From assembly GCA_009746045.1 (NCBI GenBank), contig RPFO01000542.1, forward strand, positions 126,501 through 190,500: a stretch of 64,000 nt of DNA, in the 5' to 3' direction. This DNA is from Mesostigma viride. Lineage: Eukaryota; Streptophyta; Mesostigmatophyceae; Mesostigmatales; Mesostigmataceae. The translations under genes and the position numbers were made by a program. The notes below the pieces were generated by a model. That model had not been told where the DNA came from. It made no database searches and worked only from the letters and a program-made list of their open reading frames with translations. Shown here piece by piece: positions 16,791 through 64,000 of this stretch (the stretch's first letter is position 1; every line of letters begins with the position of its first letter).

Positions 16791-16842
16791 CTTCCCTGAC
16801 ATATGTTACATCTTCGATTTTTTTTATCCCCATACCTGAATG

Positions 16843-17724
16843 AGTTACGTTAAATAGTGCCGGAACCTTTTGCCGCCTGAGGCAAATCGGGCCGGAACAC
16901 TATTTTGCCCGGAATAACCACTTCCGAGCACCCAAGTTAATTCGGCCGAATTAACTTGGGTGCTCGGAAGTGGTTATTCCGGGCAAAATAGTGTTCCGGC
17001 CCGATTTGCCTCAGGCGGCAAAAGGTTCCGGCACTATTTAACGTAACTAAAACCTGGCCTCGTGGAGGGGGGACGAAGAGCCCGAGACATCCGCCTAGGC
17101 CGCTGAGCACGCACCACTAAATGCGCCGGAGCTGCCTCAGTGAGGATTCGAACCCCTGACCTCCAAGGTGCACAGGTTTTAGTTACGTTAAATAGTGCCG
17201 GAACCTTTTGCCGCCTGAGGCAAATGGGTCCGTAACACTATTTTGCCCGGAATAACCACTTCCGGGCACCCAAGTTAATTCGGCCGAATTAACTTGGGTG
17301 CCCGGAAGTGGTTATTCCGGGCAAAATAGTGTTACGGACCGATTTGCCTCAGGCGGCAAAAGGTTCCGGCACTATTTAACGTAACTAAAACCTGTGCACC
17401 TTGGAGGTCAGGGGTTCGAATCCTCACTGAGGCAGCTCCGGCGCATTTAGTGGTGCGTGCTCAGCGGCCTAGGCGGATGTCTCGGGCTCTTCGTCCCCCC
17501 TCCACGAGGCCAGGTTTTAGTTACGTTAAATAGTGCCGGAACCTTTTGCCGCCTGAGGCAAATCGGGCCGGAACACTATTTTGCCCGGAATAACCACTTC
17601 CGGGCACCCAAGTTAATTCGGCCGAATTAACTTGGGTGCCCGGAAGTGGTTATTCCGGGCAAAATAGTGTTCCGGCCCGATTTGCCTCAGGCGGCAAAAG
17701 GTTCCGGCACTATTTAACGTAACT
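16843..17724. mobile_element. Compound palindrome element, class 1 (H-X-H-X'-H)
   Basis: Three 206-bp palindromes (16843-17048, 17181-17386, 17519-17724) are separated by a 132-bp spacer (17049-17180) and its exact-length reverse complement (17387-17518). Ends are AGTTACG...CGTAACT and the 5-bp flank GAATG occurs at 16838-16842 and 17725-17729, a target duplication. Each palindrome arm contains a smaller hairpin (AAATAGTGCCGGAACC against GGCCGGAACACTATTT) and another with loop TAACCAC. The spacer carries a tRNA B-box-like GGTTCGAATCC (17413-17423). No coding capacity. It sits upstream of the first visible exon of the plus-strand gene, probably in an intron or leader. Confidence 0.8.
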
Positions 17725-17843
17725 GAATGGGATTTCATCCTTGTTTCTTCTTAGGGTAGCGCTGCAGCGCCACCCATCACGCTGATGCGAATTTACACTT
17801 TCTTCATCCGACATTGGTCTATTTGTTTTTCCTTATTTGCCGC

Positions 17844-38457: not shown

Positions 38458-39310
38458 TGTCACGGACGCGAGCTATGTCATCCGGGCGGCGCCCACTATG
38501 CACAAGACCGGTGACGTGCGCAAGGAATTTGTTTTCTACGCATTTTCGACAAAGGCTAGTGACCGGGGGGGGACACTAGCACTTGCAGCATAAGAGCGGA
38601 CGAAAGTGTACGTGCATGCGCGCCGGGCCAGGCACAGCTGGGCGCGCAGCACTGACTTGAGCGGACGGCAGCACAAGTGCGCAGCGTCGAGAGGATCATA
38701 CGCGTGTTAGTGGACAGCTGGAGCTGAAGCTGGACTGCTGGACTTCAACAGCGCCGAGGCTATTGACAGGCCAGGTGTCTTTGTGGTGTAGAATAGCGGG
38801 TCAACGTTATGAGGACTGGACAGAAAATGAAAAAGGACAATTTGCGGTGCGGAGCCAGATCGCTGGAATGAATGCGAAATCGCTGGCAGCCCTACAAAGG
38901 GATTTCTTCTAGAAAGGAACGATTAGACGCAATGTTTGCTGGGCCACTCACACGCAAGGTGTGAGCGTGCAGATTGTCTGAAGGATATTATGCTTCGACC
39001 TTGCTGGACGTGACTCAATGTCGGACATTCCCAGGGACAGAAATGCCGGAGCCTCTAGGAGATGAGATCGGCAACAGGGTAGCAATTTAGATTTGTCGGG
39101 ATGCCTTCCTGCTTTTGTTGGCATGTGTGGTAGAAAGCCAGGACGGCAACTGGAATGCGGTTTCTATTTGCATGGTTCAGGCAGCAAGATAGTTTTGGCA
39201 TTCCTGGCTGGACTGACAAGTGTGGCGTGTGTCATGCGTGTGGCATGCATGACGAATGGTTTGGTTCATAGTCGAAGAGGACTCTCACGCAGCGTGTAGT
39301 CTCTTCGAGT
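38458..39310 (+). repeat. Direct repeat A, left copy (LTR-like)
   Basis: 853 bp, matching 41450-42300 almost base for base (two homopolymer-length differences noticed). Starts with TGTCACGGACGCG. Confidence 0.85.
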
Positions 39311-39676
39311 AATGAAAAGAGGGCTCTCAGCCGAGGACAAGGAACTGTCCCTCGTGCCTGATGACCACCTTCTTGATCCCCTTGTGTACCGTCGCGTGCC
39401 GCGTTTGAATATCCTTGCTGGGGCGTTAGCTAGACGCTCCAACTACTCTAATTGCGACAATATGATGGTGCAAGAGGGTGCTTTTGCCTCCCCTGCTATA
39501 GAACAATGCTTTCACAACACACACTTTGCACAGTCTGATGATGAAGCCGCACATGCGGAATTTATTGAGAAAGTTAATACAATTACAACACGTTGATAGT
39601 CTCAATATCGATGCACTCCATGCTCACGAGCCCGCAGTTAGGCAGCGCTCCATGACATGCTACCGGCCTTGCTCCC
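39311..39676 (+). repeat. 366-bp block i1, direct copy
   Basis: Exact-length inverted counterpart of 42337-42702. Contains a 94-codon frame (MKRGLSAEDKELSLVPDDHL...) that is intact in both copies; identity follows from the duplication and is no evidence of coding. Confidence 0.85.
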
Positions 39677-40748
39677 TCTGCAGCAGCTGATCGCTGTGCA
39701 GGCTCTCTTAGCGCGTAGCTCTCTTGCTGATTGCTACACCGCTGATATCTGGCTAGATGGTCGAGTGTTGGAGCAAGTGCAGGGTGCTGTCTTGACTCCT
39801 ACTCCAGTCGATTGGACTCCTGCTCAGAAGGCAACGGAGTTGAACAGGGTGCAGCACAGGGCTGCAACCTATGGTTGGGAAGATGGGGTTTTGTACAAGC
39901 TGTTGGGCAAGCGTAGGGTGGTCGTCCCACCGCCTGACAAGCGCGTTGCTATAGTGCAGGCGTACCACGAGCGGTATGGTCACTTGGGTGGCAATCGCAC
40001 GCTCAGCCTCGTACGGACCAGTTATTGGTGGAATAACATGCGACACACGGTGGCCCAGGTAGTGGCCAGCTGTGTCCCGTGTGCTCGAACCAAGGCTAAC
40101 TTTAGCGCAGATCATGGTGCCAAGGAGCTGATGTCGCTTCCCATCAAGGGCTTGTTTTATCGCTGGCACGTCGATCTGTGCGGGCCGTTTCAGGAGAGCC
40201 CTGACGGCAACCTCTATGTCATGGTATGCGTGGAGAGCTTTAGCAAATGGGTTGAGTTGATCCCCATTGCTGACAAGCATGCCGCTACCACAGCGAAGCA
40301 TTTTGCGGACATCATAACCAGGTTTGGGGCTCCCGCGGAGGTAGTCACGGACCAGGGTGGTGAGTTCAGGGGTGAGTTCCAGGAGTTGCTGGATGGATGT
40401 CTTATTGATCACCGTCGCACTTCTCGGGAGCATCCTCAGGCCAATGGTTTGGCTGAGAGATTGGTGCAGACCGTCAAGCAGGCGCTGCGCAAGTGGAGCC
40501 TGCAGGTGCCGGAGTCGGCCAGGTGGGATCGCGAGTTGGCATGGATTGCCATGGGTTATCGCATGTCTCCCCAGAGTCTCTCGCTACCTTCTCCCCGTAT
40601 TTCCTTCTGTTCGGGCGTAATCCTCTTTTGCCTACGGAGGCACAGGTTGCGCACCCCGAACCCATGGCCTTCGACAACGCTCAGCAATTTTTGGTTGAGG
40701 TGCTGGCCAGGGCAGAGACTTTTAAGAAGGTCATGCCCATCGCGATGA
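39657..40748 (+). CDS. Ty3/gypsy integrase (zinc-binding and catalytic core)
   Basis: The frame shows H-E-R-Y-G-H-L-G-G...C-V-P-C (HHCC zinc-binding domain, residues about 103-143), then the DDE core: WHVDLCGPF (first Asp), VVTDQGGEF (second Asp) and REHPQANGLAERLVQTVK (catalytic Glu). It would insert cDNA into the genome. True coding in this frame stops near 40575, where an indel moves it to the frame of 40493-41278. The start is arbitrary: the RT/RNase H part is absent upstream and the frame begins inside block i1. Confidence 0.9.
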   Translation: MLPALLPLQQLIAVQALLARSSLADCYTADIWLDGRVLEQVQGAVLTPTPVDWTPAQKATELNRVQHRAATYGWEDGVLYKLLGKRRVVVPPPDKRVAIVQAYHERYGHLGGNRTLSLVRTSYWWNNMRHTVAQVVASCVPCARTKANFSADHGAKELMSLPIKGLFYRWHVDLCGPFQESPDGNLYVMVCVESFSKWVELIPIADKHAATTAKHFADIITRFGAPAEVVTDQGGEFRGEFQELLDGCLIDHRRTSREHPQANGLAERLVQTVKQALRKWSLQVPESARWDRELAWIAMGYRMSPQSLSLPSPRISFCSGVILFCLRRHRLRTPNPWPSTTLSNFWLRCWPGQRLLRRSCPSR

Positions 40749-41304: not shown

Positions 41305-41447
41305 AATCATGGGACAGGTCCTCGCCCACCCCACAGGGCATGCAGTTAAGGCAGGCACGTCAGCTCAGCTCATTTGGGTTTTACCAAATTAAGCTGAGTG
41401 GCCAGCCGCCATGGTGGCGCCGGAGATTGTGGCACGCAGACGCGACA
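41305..41447 (+). repeat. 143-bp block Z, first copy
   Basis: Identical in position and length to 42703-42845. Follows the polypurine tract and ends GCGACA, two bases before the TGTCACGG start of the second A repeat. Contains a stem-loop (CTCAGCTCATTTGG against CCAAATTAAGCTGAG). Confidence 0.8.
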
Positions 41448-42336: not shown

Positions 42337-42702
42337 GGGAGCAAGGCCGGTAGCATGTCATGGAGCGCTGCCTAACTGCGGGCTCGTGAGCATGGAGTGC
42401 ATCGATATTGAGACTATCAACGTGTTGTAATTGTATTAACTTTCTCAATAAATTCCGCATGTGCGGCTTCATCATCAGACTGTGCAAAGTGTGTGTTGTG
42501 AAAGCATTGTTCTATAGCAGGGGAGGCAAAAGCACCCTCTTGCACCATCATATTGTCGCAATTAGAGTAGTTGGAGCGTCTAGCTAACGCCCCAGCAAGG
42601 ATATTCAAACGCGGCACGCGACGGTACACAAGGGGATCAAGAAGGTGGTCATCAGGCACGAGGGACAGTTCCTTGTCCTCGGCTGAGAGCCCTCTTTTCA
42701 TT
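42337..42702 (-). repeat. 366-bp block i1, inverted copy
   Basis: Reverse complement of 39311-39676, base-for-base in length. Confidence 0.85.
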
Positions 42703-42845
42703 AATCATGGGACAGGTCCTCGCCCACCCCACAGGGCATGCAGTTAAGGCAGGCACGTCAGCTCAGCTCATTTGGGTTTTACCAAATTAAGCTGAGTGGC
42801 CAGCCGCCATGGTGGCGCCGGAGATTGTGGCACGCAGACGCGACA
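42703..42845 (+). repeat. 143-bp block Z, second copy (element terminus)
   Basis: Same as 41305-41447; its last base borders the CGGT target duplicate. Confidence 0.8.
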
Positions 42846-42927
42846 CGGTAGTTTTGCCATTGAGTTTTAGACCCCTTTTTAAATATGAGGATTAGTGCGG
42901 TTTCTGCCCAGTTGCCAGGGACGATAC
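42846..42927 (-). pseudogene. L1-like ORF2, 27-codon piece between two insertions
   Basis: Encodes VPGNWAETALILIFKKGSK and TQWQNYR, the conserved block just before RT motif 1 in L1 elements. The left edge abuts the LTR-type element, the right edge the compound palindrome; both junctions keep the L1 frame when the insertions are removed. Confidence 0.85.
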
Positions 42928-43963
42928 AGTTATTATAAATAGTGACGGAACCTTTTTGCCACTTGGGCAATTAGGTCCGTCACTATTTATCCGGCGAAAA
43001 CCACTCGCCGGCATCTATTCCGCGTTAAGTTCACGTGAACGTGGCGCGGAATTGATGCCGGCGAGTGGTTTTCGCCGGATAAATAGTGACGGACCTAATT
43101 GCCCAAGTGGCAAAAAGGTTCCGTCACTATTTATAATAACTAAAACGTCGTAGTGTGGGGGCCGATATCTATCGTACCGCTAATGCCTACTGCAGTACCG
43201 AATCTCGCCTTAACGATATTCCAACCGGGCATTTTTCCCTTCTGGCACTTTCGTTTGGCCTTCTGGTATCAATTCCTTCCGGTATTCGGAAATACCCGTG
43301 TCACCACAGGGATTCGAACCCCCGACTTACGAGGTCTTAGTTATTATAAATAGTGACGGAACCTTTTTGCCACTTGGGCAATTAGGTCCGTCACTATTTA
43401 TCCGGCGAAAACCACTCGCCGGCATCTATTCCGCGTTAAGTTCACGTGAACGTGGCGCGGAATTGATGCCGGCGAGTGGTTTTCGCCGGATAAATAGTGA
43501 CGGACCTAATTGCCCAAGTGGCAAAAAGGTTCCGTCACTATTTATAATAACTAAGACCTCGTAAGTCGGGGGTTCGAATCCCTGTGGTGACACGGGTATT
43601 TCCGAATACCGGAAGGAATTGATACCAGAAGGCCAAACGAAAGTGCCAGAAGGGAAAAATGCCCGGTTGGAATATCGTTAAGGCGAGATTCGGTACTGCA
43701 GTAGGCATTAGCGGTACGATAGATATCGGCCCCCACACTACGACGTTTTAGTTATTATAAATAGTGACGGAACCTTTTTGCCACTTGGGCAATTAGGTCC
43801 GTCACTATTTATCCGGCGAAAACCACTCGCCGGCATCAATTCCGCGCCACGTTCACGTGAACTTAATGCGGAATAGATGCCGGCGAGTGGTTTTCGCCGG
43901 ATAAATAGTGACGGACCTGATTGCCCAAGTGGCAAAAAGGTTCCGTCACTATTTATAATAACT
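42928..43963. mobile_element. Compound palindrome element, class 2 (H-X-H-X'-H)
   Basis: Three 214-bp palindromes (42928-43141, 43339-43552, 43750-43963) are separated by a 197-bp spacer (43142-43338) and its reverse complement (43553-43749). Ends are AGTTATT...AATAACT; GATAC flanks both sides (42923-42927; 43964-43968), and removing the element plus one GATAC restores the L1 reading frame, so it is a true insertion. Each arm has nested hairpins (AAATAGTGACGGAACC against GGTCCGTCACTATTT; CCGGCGA-AAACCAC-TCGCCGG). The spacer contains GGTTCGAATCC (43571-43581), a tRNA B-box match. No coding capacity. Confidence 0.85.
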
Positions 43964-44437
43964 GATACCTGTGCGCCATACTTCGAGGACGCATTTGTAA
44001 AAGCCGGCAGAAAGGTCGGGCCAAAACTTCCTCCAAAATTCTACAGGGATGCCGTCCACGCCGGGTGCACTGCCGAGTTTGATTTTGAGCATAGCAGCCT
44101 GTGTCTCAGCTTGTGCGGGTGTCTGATCTAGTTCTTGCTGCTGCGTGGTGGTGAGGCGCCGTGGTATCGCCTGAAGGACTTGGTGGATAGCTTGAGGTGC
44201 TTGAGGGTGCGGTTTACTTCGGAATAGCTTCGTAAAATATTGATGACCGCTGTTTAGTATGGAATGGGTGTCGGTGTGGATGCCCTGGTCGTCGTGAATT
44301 TCAGTTATCAGCGTGTGTGTTCGTTGCTTGGGGAGGAGTGCAAAATATTCTTTATTCATTTTTTCCCCCGTTGTGTGCCACCAAAGGTTTTCCGCATCTA
44401 TGGCGTTAGCGTGTCTTTCGTATCGCAGTTTGTCCAA
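43964..44437 (-). pseudogene. L1-like ORF2, region upstream of the RT
   Basis: Frame from MDKLRYERHANAIDAEN includes WWHTTGEKMNKEYFALLPKQ and LKIKLGSAPGVDGIPVEFW, the canonical K-x-x-S-P-G-x-D-G-x-P block ahead of RT. It ends at the compound palindrome after VWRTG; the next codons resume at 42927. The endonuclease domain is missing, so the L1 copy is 5'-truncated near 44440. Confidence 0.85.
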
Positions 44438-44917
44438 GGCTAGCCATGGGCTTGTTGCATTTTCGCCATGTCATTCAACTTGACTTTTTCATTAAACTCG
44501 AGTCAACAAACTTCACACCAGTGTGTGACCACCTTCATTTAGGATTCGCTGATACTCATTTCCCCTCTCACCTCTTTGGTCCATAATTGGCTAATAAAAA
44601 ATATACCCATTTCCCCGAAAACTCGAGTCAACAACAGTTTTCATTTATGGCAGTGTCAGCTGGAACGTGCGACTGGGCTTGACATCCCTCATCCACCTTA
44701 AATAAAATGCGCTCTGCATAAAGCTCGTGAACCTGTAGAACGTATCGCTTACCCCACAGGCACGCAGTACATAAAGCAACTGTACGTAAGCGATACTGGC
44801 ACGCAGTGACTACAATAAGCCTGGGAGTCTGGGGCCGGGCTGATTTGATGGTTGCAGGAAAGTCTTTCCTGCAAAACTGGGATAAACCCGCCGAAAGTTC
44901 TCGTAATCACATTGTTG
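44438..44917. other. No gene recognised
   Basis: Short spacer with two ACTCGAGTCAACAA words (about 44490 and 44620). The left copy of the half-LINE target duplicate, CACATTGTTG, is at 44908-44917. Confidence 0.45.
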
Positions 44918-48346: not shown

Positions 48347-49125
48347 TGTAACAAGCAAAAATGACTTTGTTGTTACATCCTTTGTTTTGTGAATGTTTGG
48401 CTTTTATTTGAGGACTTTTGGATCAGTATTGAGAAAGTTATGAGGTTTCTAAGACGACGGTACTTGGAGCTGATACTTTGTCAACCAACTGATAGGAACC
48501 CTCATTGGTCGTGGCCTGATCCACGTAGGGTTGTAGTTTGTTGGCTGATACTACTGATAGGAGCCCTCATTGGTCGTGGCCTGATCCACGTGGGGTTGTA
48601 GTTTGTTAGTTGGTACTATTGAGTCTTAAATGCTCCTTTGGGACTTCAGTGCTTACGACAGATTTAGGATCTCATGAAAAGATTCTGCCAGGCTGTGTGT
48701 GGTGTTGTTCTGTTCTATGTGACTAGGATGGATACGAAGATCTTGTATAGAATCCCATGGTTCTGATTGGTTCTCTTCAGGCTAAGGTTGGAGCAAGTTC
48801 GACAAGCACGTCGATATCAAGGACGTGGGGTCGCCATTGTTGCGACGTTGGTTTTGATTCACCATGGTATAATAAAGCTTGGCTTTGTTGTCCAATTCAT
48901 AAGAGCCCCTTGGCTATAGACGTCCTTCAGTTCCACAGAGGTCGTCTACACACGAGCTTGTCTTTGTGTCTACAAGGGGTGTGATTCCCTAAATCACGTG
49001 CTGTGGAATTTCCATCTCAACGTTGCTCGGATACTTGAAGTTCTGCAACTCAAGAAAGCAACCCAGGTAACAGATCTTTCATATTGGACTGTGGATGATG
49101 CTGATGATCATTTTTAGTCGTTACA
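48347..49125 (+). repeat. Left LTR
   Basis: 779 bp, ending AGTCGTTACA. Contains an internal ~65-bp duplication around CCTCATTGGTCGTGGCCTGA (at 48502 and 48564). Confidence 0.9.
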
Positions 49126-53659: not shown

Positions 53660-54438
53660 TGTAACAAGCAAAAATGACTTTGTTGTTACATCCTTTGTTT
53701 TGTGAATGTTTGGCTTTTATTTGAGGACTTTTGGATCAGTATTGAGAAAGTTATGAGGTTTCTAAGACGACGGTACTTGGAGCTGATACTTTGTCAACCA
53801 ACTGATAGGAACCCTCATTGGTCGTGGCCTGATCCACGTAGGGTTGTAGTTTGTTGGCTGATACTACTGATAGGAGCCCTCATTGGTCGTGGCCTGATCC
53901 ACGTGGGGTTGTAGTTTGTTAGTTGGTACTATTGAGTCTTAAATGCTCCTTTGGGACTTCAGTGCTTACGACAGATTTAGGATCTCATGGAAAGATTCTG
54001 CCAGGCTGTGTGTGGTGTTGTTCTGTTCTGTGTGACTAGGATGGATACGAAGATCTTGTATAGAATCCCATGGTTCTGATTGGTTCTCTTCAGGCTAAGG
54101 TTGGAGCAAGTTCGACAAGCACGTCGATATCAAGGACGTGGGGTCGCCATTGTTGCGACGTTGGTTTTGATTCACCATGGTATAATAAAGCTTGGCTTTG
54201 TTGTCCAATTCATAAGAGCCCCTTGGCTATAGACGTCCTTCAGTTCCACAGAGGTCGTCTACACACGAGCTTGTCTTTGTGTCTACAAGGGGTGTGATTC
54301 CCTAAATCACGTGCTGTGGAATTTCCATCTCAACGTTGCTCGGATACTTGAAGTTCTGCAACTCAAGAAAGCAACCCAGGTAACAGATCTTTCATATTGG
54401 ACTGTGGATGATGCTGATGATCATTTTTAGTCGTTACA
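53660..54438 (+). repeat. Right LTR
   Basis: 779 bp; by eye differs from the left LTR only at the ATGAAAAG/ATGGAAAG and TTCTATGTG/TTCTGTGTG positions. Confidence 0.9.
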
Positions 54439-60916: not shown

Positions 60917-61116
60917 ACAGGCGGCAGGCGGCAGGCGGCAGGCGGCAGGCGGCAGGCGGCAGGCGGCAGGCGGCAGGCGGCAGGCGGCAGGCGGCAGGCG
61001 GCAGGCGGCAGGCGGCAGGCGGCAGGCGGCAGGCGGCAGGCGGCAGGCGGCAGGCGGCAGGCGGCAGGCGGCAGGCGGCAGGCGGCAGGCGGCAGGCGGC
61101 AGGCGGCAGGCGGCAG
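60917..61116 (+). repeat. (GGCGGCA)n heptanucleotide array, ~28 units
   Basis: Uninterrupted 7-bp repeat; long open frames on both strands (AAGGRRQ, PPAACRL) are artefacts. Confidence 0.95.
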
Positions 61117-61157
61117 GTGGCGCAAAGGGCACTCAGCGGATGGCCAATATTGAACAT

Positions 61158-61362
61158 AAAGAGTAAATAACATGCCATGTAGTGAGAGTAAATAACATGC
61201 CATGTAGTGAGAGTAAATAACATGCCATGTAGTGAGAGTAAATAACATGCCATGTAGTGAGAGTAAATAACATGCCATGTAGTGAGAGTAAATAACATGC
61301 CATGTAGTGAGAGTAAATAACATGCCATGTAGTGAGAGTAAATAACATGCCATGTAGTGAGA
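61158..61362 (+). repeat. 25-bp minisatellite, ~8 units
   Basis: Unit GAGTAAATAACATGCCATGT plus AGTGA, perfect over most units; partial copies continue to about 61405. Confidence 0.95.
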
Positions 61363-61562
61363 TGACCAGTGCAAGCATGAGAGATGACCATGTAGTGAGA
61401 TGACCAGTGCAAGCAAGCTAGCAAGCGAGCGGCTGGTGAGCTCTGCCAGCGAAAAACAACGCATATGAATCCACACACCTATGTTCGTAGATCCCACATA
61501 TAGGAACACACACAAGCACTTGCATGTACGCACGCACGCGCGCGCACACACACACACACAAA

Positions 61563-62335
61563 AGAAGAGAAGAGAAGAGAAAAGAAAAGAACAGAACAGA
61601 ACAGAACAGAACAGAACAGAACAGAACAGAACAGAACAGAACAGAACAGAACAGAACAGAACAGAACAGAACAGAACAGAACAGAACAGAACAGAACAGA
61701 ACAGAACAGGGCAGGGCAGGGCAGGGCAGGGCAGGGCAGGGCAGGGCAGGGCAGGGCAGGGCAGGGCAGGGCAGGGCAGGGCAGGGCAGGGCAGGGCAGG
61801 GCAGGGCAGGGCAGGGCAGGGCAGGGCAGGGCAGGGCAGGGCAGGGCAGGGCAGGGCAGGGCAGGGCAGGGCAGGGCAGGGCAGGGCAGGGCAGGGCAGG
61901 GCAGGGCAGGGCAGGGCAGGGCAGGGCAGGGCAGGGCAGGGCAGGGCAGGGCAGGGCAGGGCAGGGCAGGGCAGGGCAGGGCAGGGCAGGGCAGGGCAGG
62001 GCAGGGCAGGGCAGGGCAGGGCAGGGCAGGGCAGGGCAGGGCAGGGCAGGGCAGGGCAGGGCAGGGCAGGGCAGGGCAGGGCAGGGCAGGGCAGGGCAGG
62101 GCAGGGCAGGGCAGGGCAGGGCAGGGCAGGGCAGGGCAGGGCAGGGCAGGGCAGGGCAGGGCAGGGCAGGGCAGGGCAGGGCAGGGCAGGGCAGGGCAGG
62201 GCAGGGCAGGGCAGGGCAGGGCAGGGCAGGGCAGGGCAGGGCAGGACAGAACAGAAGAGAACAGAACAGAACAGAACAGAAAAGAAAAGAAAAGAAAAGA
62301 AAAGAAAAGAAAAGAAAAGAAAAGAAAAGAAAAAA
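61563..62335 (+). repeat. Pentanucleotide mega-array: (ACAGA)n-(GGGCA)n-(AGAAA)n
   Basis: AGAGA/AAAGA lead-in, about 24 ACAGA units (61588-61708), about 108 GGGCA units (61708-62246), a short ACAGA stretch, then AAAGA units to 62335. All units are 5 bp and change by single substitutions, so one expanding array has diversified at its edges. Open frames here (GQGRA, LPCPA) are artefacts. Confidence 0.95.
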
Positions 62336-64000
62336 GGAAAGGAAAGGGAAAAAAAGAGAAAAAAGAAATGCCAACCCAAGAACGATGCTACTGGGTGTGA
62401 AATTGAGGACACAAGCACACATGACAACAAAAAAACAACACGTACCCGAGAACAACCAAGCAAGCAAGAAAACAGTTGGTGACCTGTGCCAGCCAAAAAT
62501 GACACCTACCCAAGGACAGGGCTAGCAAGAAAACCATTGGTGACCTATGCCCGCCAAAAACAACACGTACCCGAGGACGGGGCTAGCGGGCGATGGCAGC
62601 CCCCGCCCCGACGCCAGCGCTGCGGCCGCCGCGTCGCGTGCGGGTTGGCACCATGCGGCGCGCTGCTGATGCCAGCGCAGTAAACCTGTGGGTGGCACGA
62701 CAGCCAAATCACAGCAACAACCACAACAACAGCAAGAACCAGAATCACAGCAACAACCACAACGGCAATAACAACCACAACAAACGGCATAAATGATGGC
62801 ATTAGTGTTGGTGCCAGCACAGCAGGACCATGCCCATGGGTGGGTGAACCATCACGACAACCACCGCAACAACAATGGTGACTTCAATCATTGGTGCCAG
62901 CGTAGCTGGCCCGCTTGGGCACACTGCCCGCTTGTGTGGGCGGATACAGGAACGCAGTATACACCTCATTGACTTAAATGTAACGATGCCGACGCAGAGA
63001 ATGAAGGTACCCAGTGGGGGGGGGGGCAAGGCAGTCCACTTGTCAAGAAATGAAACACTTCTCAATGTCAGGATGAGCTGAAACGCCGAGGCAGGTATCT
63101 GTAGTATTGTGATAAATATAGGAATCAGTACTACGACAATCTGAGTCTGTATCAATCCCGCTGCTGGCTTGATCTCACTGTTGACTGCTATCGGGGATAA
63201 AAACATTAAGTGCTCAAGGATGCAAATGTTAAAGATGCGCACGTGAGAACTGAAGCCATGAGAATGAGGACGACAACGATGACAGTCGTAACAGCAGCAC
63301 TAATGATATTGATCATAGCCGCTGTATCATGAATCATTCCTAATCAAAACATAATACTGTGTCAAAGCCAGGATGGACAACCCCTTGGGTCAGGGTCTCC
63401 ATCAACGCTTGGGATGACACGAAGCAACAATGCAAAAGGTTTACGACACGGCTGAGCTTACAACAAGCGGCACCCACACGATCCAGAAACAAAGGCAAAA
63501 AAAAAAAGGGCAAGGGTTTTGGTGCAAGGGCTCATGGTTGTCAATGCAACAAGTCTTAAACAATGCAGAAGTTCTTACAAGAAAAATGACAATGGAACAA
63601 TATTGATTGAAAAAAGCTACGACGGGATATAGTGGGTTTCGCCACAAAATCTTGAAGTGGGTGCGCCAGAAAACCTTCAGCGCAATAAAACAAAAAATCG
63701 ATATGCATATACGCAGCAAGGCACAAACGAAAAAGGGTCTTCAGGTTGCTCCTAGGTCCGCTGGGGCTTCCACTACCATGGGAAGCAATACTACTGATTG
63801 TAATGTTATGTTCCATGTTGACCTTGATTTCTATACGACATGTTAGGGCATACCCTATCCTTAGACCTGCAGCGAACTACCGAACCATGTTACGCCACTG
63901 GCATTCCAACAAACGCTCACGTAACGCTGTTACGTGTTAATTAATTCATTAATTCCAACAAACGACTGTCGCTGTGACTGACTGCCACCAGGCCGGGAAA
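62336..64000. other. No gene recognised; short direct repeats
   Basis: 62380-62585 has two to three diverged copies of a ~70-bp unit (AAGCAAGAAAACAGTTGGTG / CAAGAAAACCATTGGTGACC with CGCCAAAAACAACACGTACC). 62700-62790 is a CAACAACCACAA-rich stretch. 63027-63038 is a G run. No coding signal found. Confidence 0.4.

Follow-up and report, generated by a model that had tools for sequence, protein, structure and literature searches.

Mirror-image elements of three palindromes in Mesostigma viride and a possible fold-back route for their copying

How did a mirror-image unit of three palindromes come to lie inside an L1 reading frame, and by what route are such units copied? This question is raised by positions 42928-43963 of the window, by which we mean the whole 64-kb stretch of Mesostigma viride DNA that was analysed. 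Long near-perfect palindromes are usually considered unstable; the assembly of this alga nonetheless holds hundreds of mirror-image elements with 200-bp palindromes. The first-pass annotation had described the unit as three 214-bp palindromes (P) and two opposed 197-bp spacers (S), together 1036 bp, and this plan, P(214)-S(197)-P-S'-P, hereafter class 2, was borne out to the base. The element and the interrupted L1 fragment consist of the following features.

42846..42927, minus strand: L1 fragment, continuation IVPGNWAE...QNYR
42923..42927, no strand: left target-site duplication GATAC
42928..43141, no strand: outer palindrome P1, 214 bp, with 8 self-mismatched positions, all within the central 38 bp
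43142..43338, minus strand: spacer S, 197 bp; its P1 side begins AAAA, which is TTTT in sense, and its B-box end adjoins P2
43310..43320, minus strand: GGTTCGAATCC, B-box match in a tRNA 3'-half-like stretch of spacer S
43339..43552, no strand: central palindrome P2, identical in sequence to P1
inside P2, starting 61 bp upstream of the B-box-like site at 43571..43581: putative A-box-like TTGCCCAAGTGG, 1 mismatch
43553..43749, plus strand: spacer S', 197 bp, exact reverse complement of S (0 differences)
43571..43581, plus strand: GGTTCGAATCC, B-box-like site in S'
43746..43749, plus strand: TTTT, the sole TTTT of S' past the B box, at the P3 boundary
43750..43963, no strand: outer palindrome P3, reverse complement of P1 with 2 differences
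43964..43968, no strand: right target-site duplication GATAC
43964..44470, minus strand: L1 reverse-transcriptase fragment, upstream part, with EVWRTG at the junction

We take GGTTCGAATCC to be the Pol III B-box consensus, and GGTTCGANTCC occurs 4 times in the 64 kb, every time inside one of the window's two elements. Taken whole, the 1036 bp form an inverted repeat whose arms are about 519 bp long and have 6 mismatched pairs. The palindrome scores of the window's six centres were 89-501, and the best ungapped score reached by chance, in 20 simulated 64-kb windows, was 10. A long reading frame is absent from the element; a 116-aa open stretch across S-P gave 3 protein candidates, none of which matched. 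The second element of the window has the same plan with divergent sequence, and the palindromes of the two align best over their outer parts.

16838..16842, no strand: left duplication GAATG of the second element
16843..17724, no strand: second element, class 1, P(206)-S(132)-P-S'-P
16843-17048, 17181-17386 and 17519-17724, no strand: its three palindromes
17725..17729, no strand: right duplication GAATG

The GATAC pair at 42923-42927 and 43964-43968 had been noticed earlier, together with the claim that the L1 frame closes over the element. Both observations were reproduced: when the element is removed with one GATAC, ...EVWRTG runs into IVPGNWAETALILIFKKGSKTQWQNYR in a single frame. For this copy, the predicted empty site is read solely from the reading frame and the duplication. 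Only a short piece of the host L1 is present, and a further repeat interrupts it after NYR; a protein search for relatives of the rejoined frame returned 35 candidates with 0 at E<=0.001. The L1 ORF1 in the window matched Mesostigma viride proteins at 95-96%; its protein matches were 6 in total, one of them in Prorocentrum lima at 56%. The surroundings contain further repeats: identical 143-bp direct repeats lie at 41305-41447 and 42703-42845, the second abutting the L1 fragment right after NYR, and 42337-42706 is an inverted copy of 39307-39676 (99.7%). A retroelement integrase with Integrase_H2C2 and rve domains is found at 39642-40745 on the plus strand.

The size of the family was estimated in the Mesostigma viride assembly (440 Mb, 2243 contigs). 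The P-end motif AGTTANNNTAAATAGTGNCGGAACC was found exactly at 1825 + 1847 = 3672 places, and the reversed control at 0. If each P has two motifs and each element three P, the count stands for several hundred elements, about 600, and the number of insertions is larger than that once single- and two-P forms are counted. Full-length class-2 P sequences, 100% identical over 214 bp, were present at at least 40 places (the best 40 of 567 candidates), with one further partial place among the matches listed.

For detailed parsing, 44 stretches (L039-L082) were fetched from the assembly. The first 25 loci of the P-end motif listing (L039-L063) comprised 11 three-P, 1 four-P, 3 two-P and 5 single-P forms, and 5 that were incomplete or rearranged; L064-L081 were drawn from the 100%-identical P matches and are therefore biased towards young copies. 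L049, a three-P element with an irregular spacer, was kept out of the 22 regular three-P elements; its second and third spacers follow each other with no P in between, and only 70 bp remain of each outer palindrome. Two observations concern single palindromes. At L040 (4001-4236) there is a divergent solo palindrome of 236 bp that has 36 self-mismatches and is flanked by a 5-bp duplication; it may represent an older family lineage. L075 and L079 each have a lone class-1 palindrome (at 764-969 and 2174-2379, respectively), separated by 32 bp from a multi-palindrome element of class 2; the order is mirrored between them, and the two loci are perhaps duplicates.

Target-site duplications could be scored in 42 of 46 elements, the window's two included; the four left out are L046 and L052, which lack a complete pair of P, L079, where two neighbouring insertions were not separated, and L082, which is flank only. 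The duplication was exactly 5 bp in 36 of the 42, among them L051, L075, L080 and L081. Longer flank matches, in simple repeats, were found in three (L048, L072, L073), and three more (L047, L054, L069) had no duplication. The duplications of the other 32 were all distinct in sequence, and a fixed length of this kind points to an enzyme with a fixed stagger. When the joined flanks were compared with the fetched sequences, an element-free paralogous site with one copy of the duplication was found for 9 of these 32 elements. In 9 of 9 at least one match was ungapped at the junction, in a search that favoured the best ungapped match per query, so that "ungapped" means at least one such match; four had 0 mismatches in 25 bp, and two (L055, L060) were only 75-77% identical. 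Since elements such as L041, L042, L065, L075 and L079 sit within related satellite arrays of about 40-bp units, several of these empty sites are sister repeat units. The first-pass annotation had read the L1 junction as transposition-like insertion of the whole compound unit, and because the duplications differ among copies and 9 of 32 have an element-free paralogous site, this reading is supported.

The order of the spacers was strict. In 22 of 22 regular three-P elements the arrangement is head-to-head, that is, the B-box ends of both spacers face the central P. Exact patterns of the same format counted 89 head-to-head and 0 tail-to-tail class-2 centres genome-wide, with controls at 0. The four-P elements L039 and L075 carry one extra unit in tandem beside a head-to-head centre, and these are the only same-orientation tandem junctions among the fetched elements.

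On average, the two S arms of one element resemble each other more closely than they do the arms of other elements. The mean number of differences between S arms was 0.67 within versus 3.26 between elements for class 2 (15 elements) and 0.71 versus 1.74 for class 1 (7 elements), and 0 of 5000 random pairings were as low as the within-element mean. At the level of single elements, 8 of 22 had the own partner as the strictly nearest arm, 10 showed a tie with another element, and for 4 an arm of another element was nearer (L059, L066, L070, L077; the arms of L077 differ by 4). Of the element-private variants in class 2, 11 were shared by both arms and 7 confined to one; class 1 had 2 and 6, and four of those six lie in one L062 arm.

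Because the class-2 P centre is asymmetric, its orientation can be read. Relative to S, 28 of 30 outer P sequences point the same way; the left one of L065 is opposite and the right one of L077 a tie. Of the 15 central P sequences, 12 are asymmetric and 3 fully or almost symmetric. Since an asymmetric centre in such a mirror-image unit must face opposite ways for the two arms, its "free" orientation carries no weight as evidence on its own. Three elements have disrupted centres, with full outer palindromes and 5-bp duplications. The centres of L061 and L074 are broken at or near the tip of P, and in L068 a class-2 arm runs as far as the tip of P and there gives way to a class-1 arm starting about 16 bases before S. 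For L068, post-insertion deletion was rejected, as two classes are joined within one 5-bp duplication. Element E1 shows substitutions mirrored across the palindrome in P1 (85/122) and P2 (49, 53/154, 158).

At the level of fine structure, each P half is predicted to form two hairpins on its own when folded as RNA, with z values versus shuffles of -2.9 and -3.3 for class 1 and -8.0 and -6.3 for class 2. An alignment of half-arms (9 rows, L040 included) showed changes on both sides with pairing kept in 6 of 26 predicted pairs and broken pairing, in one or two of the 9 rows, in 7; the loop AACCAC is nearly constant (AACGAC in L040). Conservation of the P-half hairpins is no more than suggested by these rows, which are few and related. 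The tRNA 3'-half-like stretch stands at the start of the spacer. Of the 63 S arms examined, 59 have the B box without a mismatch, and all 63 close with TTTT where they meet P. Upstream of the B box, at 61 bp in class 2 and 68 bp in class 1, P contains a putative A-box-like site with a single mismatch. With the B box in S, this site in P and TTTT at the border, the S unit resembles a Pol III unit. The transcript of such a unit would stop before the outer P and would therefore not be the full template. S also carries short terminal inverted repeats in both classes, with scores reached by 1 and 4 of 2000 shuffles.

ARAGORN predicted 0 tRNA genes, and Rfam gave 0 matches at the gathering score. 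At a relaxed threshold, 24 and 19 Rfam matches appeared, all under cut-off and mostly of microRNA type, with tRNA at 17.4 bits versus a cut-off of 29; no hammerhead was among the listed relaxed-threshold matches. The microRNA-type matches arise from the palindrome, and microRNA identity was rejected on the scores below cut-off. A tRNA-derived SINE, expected to have variable duplications of LINE type, also fits poorly: in spite of the B box and TTTT, the duplication length is 5 bp and P forms the end of the unit. There were 0 matches to viral contigs, 0 to prokaryote contigs, and none to phages and plasmids.

What copying route would produce such units? We regard the chances as evenly balanced that this is a non-autonomous element whose single-stranded copy folds back, primes its own synthesis and inserts as an inverted dimer at a 5-bp staggered cut. 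The building blocks would be the palindrome P as the element end and the spacer S with fixed polarity, one end tRNA-like with the B box and the other TTTT. The starting molecule would be single-stranded and always of the same polarity, 5'-P-(TTTT end)S(B-box end)-P-3'; the simplest candidate is the first-strand cDNA of a P-S-P transcript. Its 3' palindrome would fold onto itself, and the hairpin would prime copying of S and the outer P. The product would be a double-stranded dimer of two mirror-image halves that have one P in common and turn their B-box ends towards it; a helper enzyme acting in trans would insert this dimer at a 5-bp staggered cut. We infer the fold-back step, together with its timing, the strand polarity, the RNA intermediate and the helper.

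The bias of 89 versus 0 fits fold-back because a strand of single polarity predicts it, and a duplex with palindromes at both ends is disfavoured because its fold-back would also give tail-to-tail centres. Mirror copying of the whole P-S arm predicts one orientation of the outer P, as seen in 28 of 30. We also count in favour the 3 of 15 near-symmetric class-2 centres, present despite asymmetric outer P; the central breaks of L068, L061 and L074 at or near the tip of P with intact ends; the mirrored substitutions in P1 and P2 of E1; and the within-element likeness of S arms with the class-2 private variants (11 versus 7). Two-P elements with 5-bp duplications (L041, L050, L081) would be the proposed precursor and count likewise. 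Self-priming from within the tip of P was dropped, as it predicts symmetric centres, which were seen in only 3 of 15 class-2 elements; the hairpin would therefore have to use the whole P. Several observations count against fold-back. One ancestral head-to-head form copied whole also yields 89 to 0, and gene conversion between arms could keep them alike. Own arms are strictly nearest in just 8 of 22, the class-1 private variants run 2 versus 6, and the L068 chimera requires two templates. Tandem junctions in L039 and L075, the lack of a long reading frame and the putative Pol III stop before the outer P also speak against it.

The first of these objections leads to a serious rival, which we consider possible though on the unlikely side: a foldback or TIR DNA transposon, whose transposase would cut with a 5-bp stagger and move the unit whole. 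An early head-to-head three-P form would be copied as it is, and conversion would keep the arms alike. The inverted termini and the fixed 5-bp duplication are those of a TIR or foldback element, and S has its own short terminal inverted repeats. Descent would explain the 89 head-to-head and 0 tail-to-tail centres, conversion within a single P the mirrored substitutions, and the ties among nearest S arms fit as well. However, elements of one, two and four P also have duplications of their own, and these forms, like L068 with its mixed class-1 and class-2 arms, would need re-making or recombination. Long inverted repeats are shared with foldback transposons such as Tm1 (PMC3169594), whereas the Mesostigma element has three nested palindromes and a 5-bp duplication.

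Fold-back self-priming has a working parallel in parvovirus terminal hairpins, where a palindromic end with inner hairpins and two tip orientations primes its own copying and inverted dimers share one palindrome. The likeness is one of working only, and no sequence or protein relation is claimed. That the family is a parvovirus-style cellular element, always of one strand, self-priming from palindromic ends to a duplex inverted dimer and inserting at a 5-bp stagger, is a doubtful, if conceivable, extension.

Less probable again is a model with two copies made from both sides of one staggered cut, each on its own template from the TTTT/outer-P end, which anneal at the tip of P. It would cover the head-to-head order, the 5-bp duplication and the central breakpoints with intact outer ends, and would account for the chimera L068; the within-element likeness of arms would demand that both templates usually come from one locus.

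We give little credit to a TRIM-like LTR retrotransposon with a palindromic LTR and inverted order by recombination. P of 206-214 bp and S of 132-197 bp fall within TRIM sizes in the excerpted text of PMC6934838, which likewise has solo terminal repeats, multi-copy forms and tRNA similarity of the inner domain in common with the present family. Terminal repeats, a short duplication (here 5 bp) and solo, two- and multi-P forms are indeed those of an LTR element. In contrast, the Mesostigma repeat is palindromic and its order inverted head-to-head, and its ends are AGTTA...TAACT, that is, AG...CT instead of TG...CA. By eye, no primer binding site or polypurine tract was seen at the P/S borders, and the tRNA-like stretch beside P is in sense and has no CCA. 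Recombination predicts same-orientation tandems, which among fetched elements occur only in L039 and L075, with head-to-head at 89 and tail-to-tail at 0. A plain LTR element was rejected on its ends and the lack of a visible primer site.

Palindromic reads from missed adapters are a familiar long-read artefact, but an assembly artefact has next to no probability here, as the arms end exactly at P, the flanks differ between sides, a 5-bp duplication is found at 36 of 42 parsed sites and the class-2 centre is common to 89 loci.

The nearest known architecture is that of Penelope-like elements. According to the excerpts of PMC3846280, Pen2/Pen3 of Adineta vaga have pseudo-LTRs of about 190-220 bp in direct and inverted copies; the inverted junctions are palindromic and mostly head-to-head, for which self-priming on an antisense template was inferred there. 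Pseudo-LTRs with palindromic head-to-head junctions are thus common to both (excerpts of PMC3846280). Unlike the duplications of 8-10 bp or none given in the same excerpts (PMC3846280), those in Mesostigma are 5 bp; moreover, P is palindromic throughout, the commonest form is a symmetric dimer, and the element itself is without reverse transcriptase or endonuclease, with no hammerhead among the listed Rfam matches.

Parts of the architecture are therefore paralleled in Penelope pseudo-LTRs, TRIMs and foldback transposons, and the features tested speak against plain membership. In open-licence PMC full text, neither a triple-palindrome family nor such a self-priming dimer cycle for a non-viral eukaryotic element was found described. 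Within the available main text of the Mesostigma genome paper (PMC6947507), "palindrom" occurs 0 times, and LTR, LINE, PLE and TIR appear in a legend. There is a fair chance that the copying cycle is new to science. Marks of the copying step may survive in the sequence as the strict head-to-head order, the tip of the palindrome and the breaks at the centre. If fold-back self-priming is true, the idea proposed for rotifer Penelope elements (excerpts of PMC3846280) could be tested on several hundred natural products.

The window also contains tandem repeats. Very long, mostly near-perfect micro- and minisatellites occupy 60918-62368 (CAGGCGG x29, a 25-mer x8, AGAAC x29, CAGGG x109). Two tandem-repeat rows of equal unit, length and score lie 5313 bp apart at 48488-48622 and 53801-53935, which suggests a local duplication.
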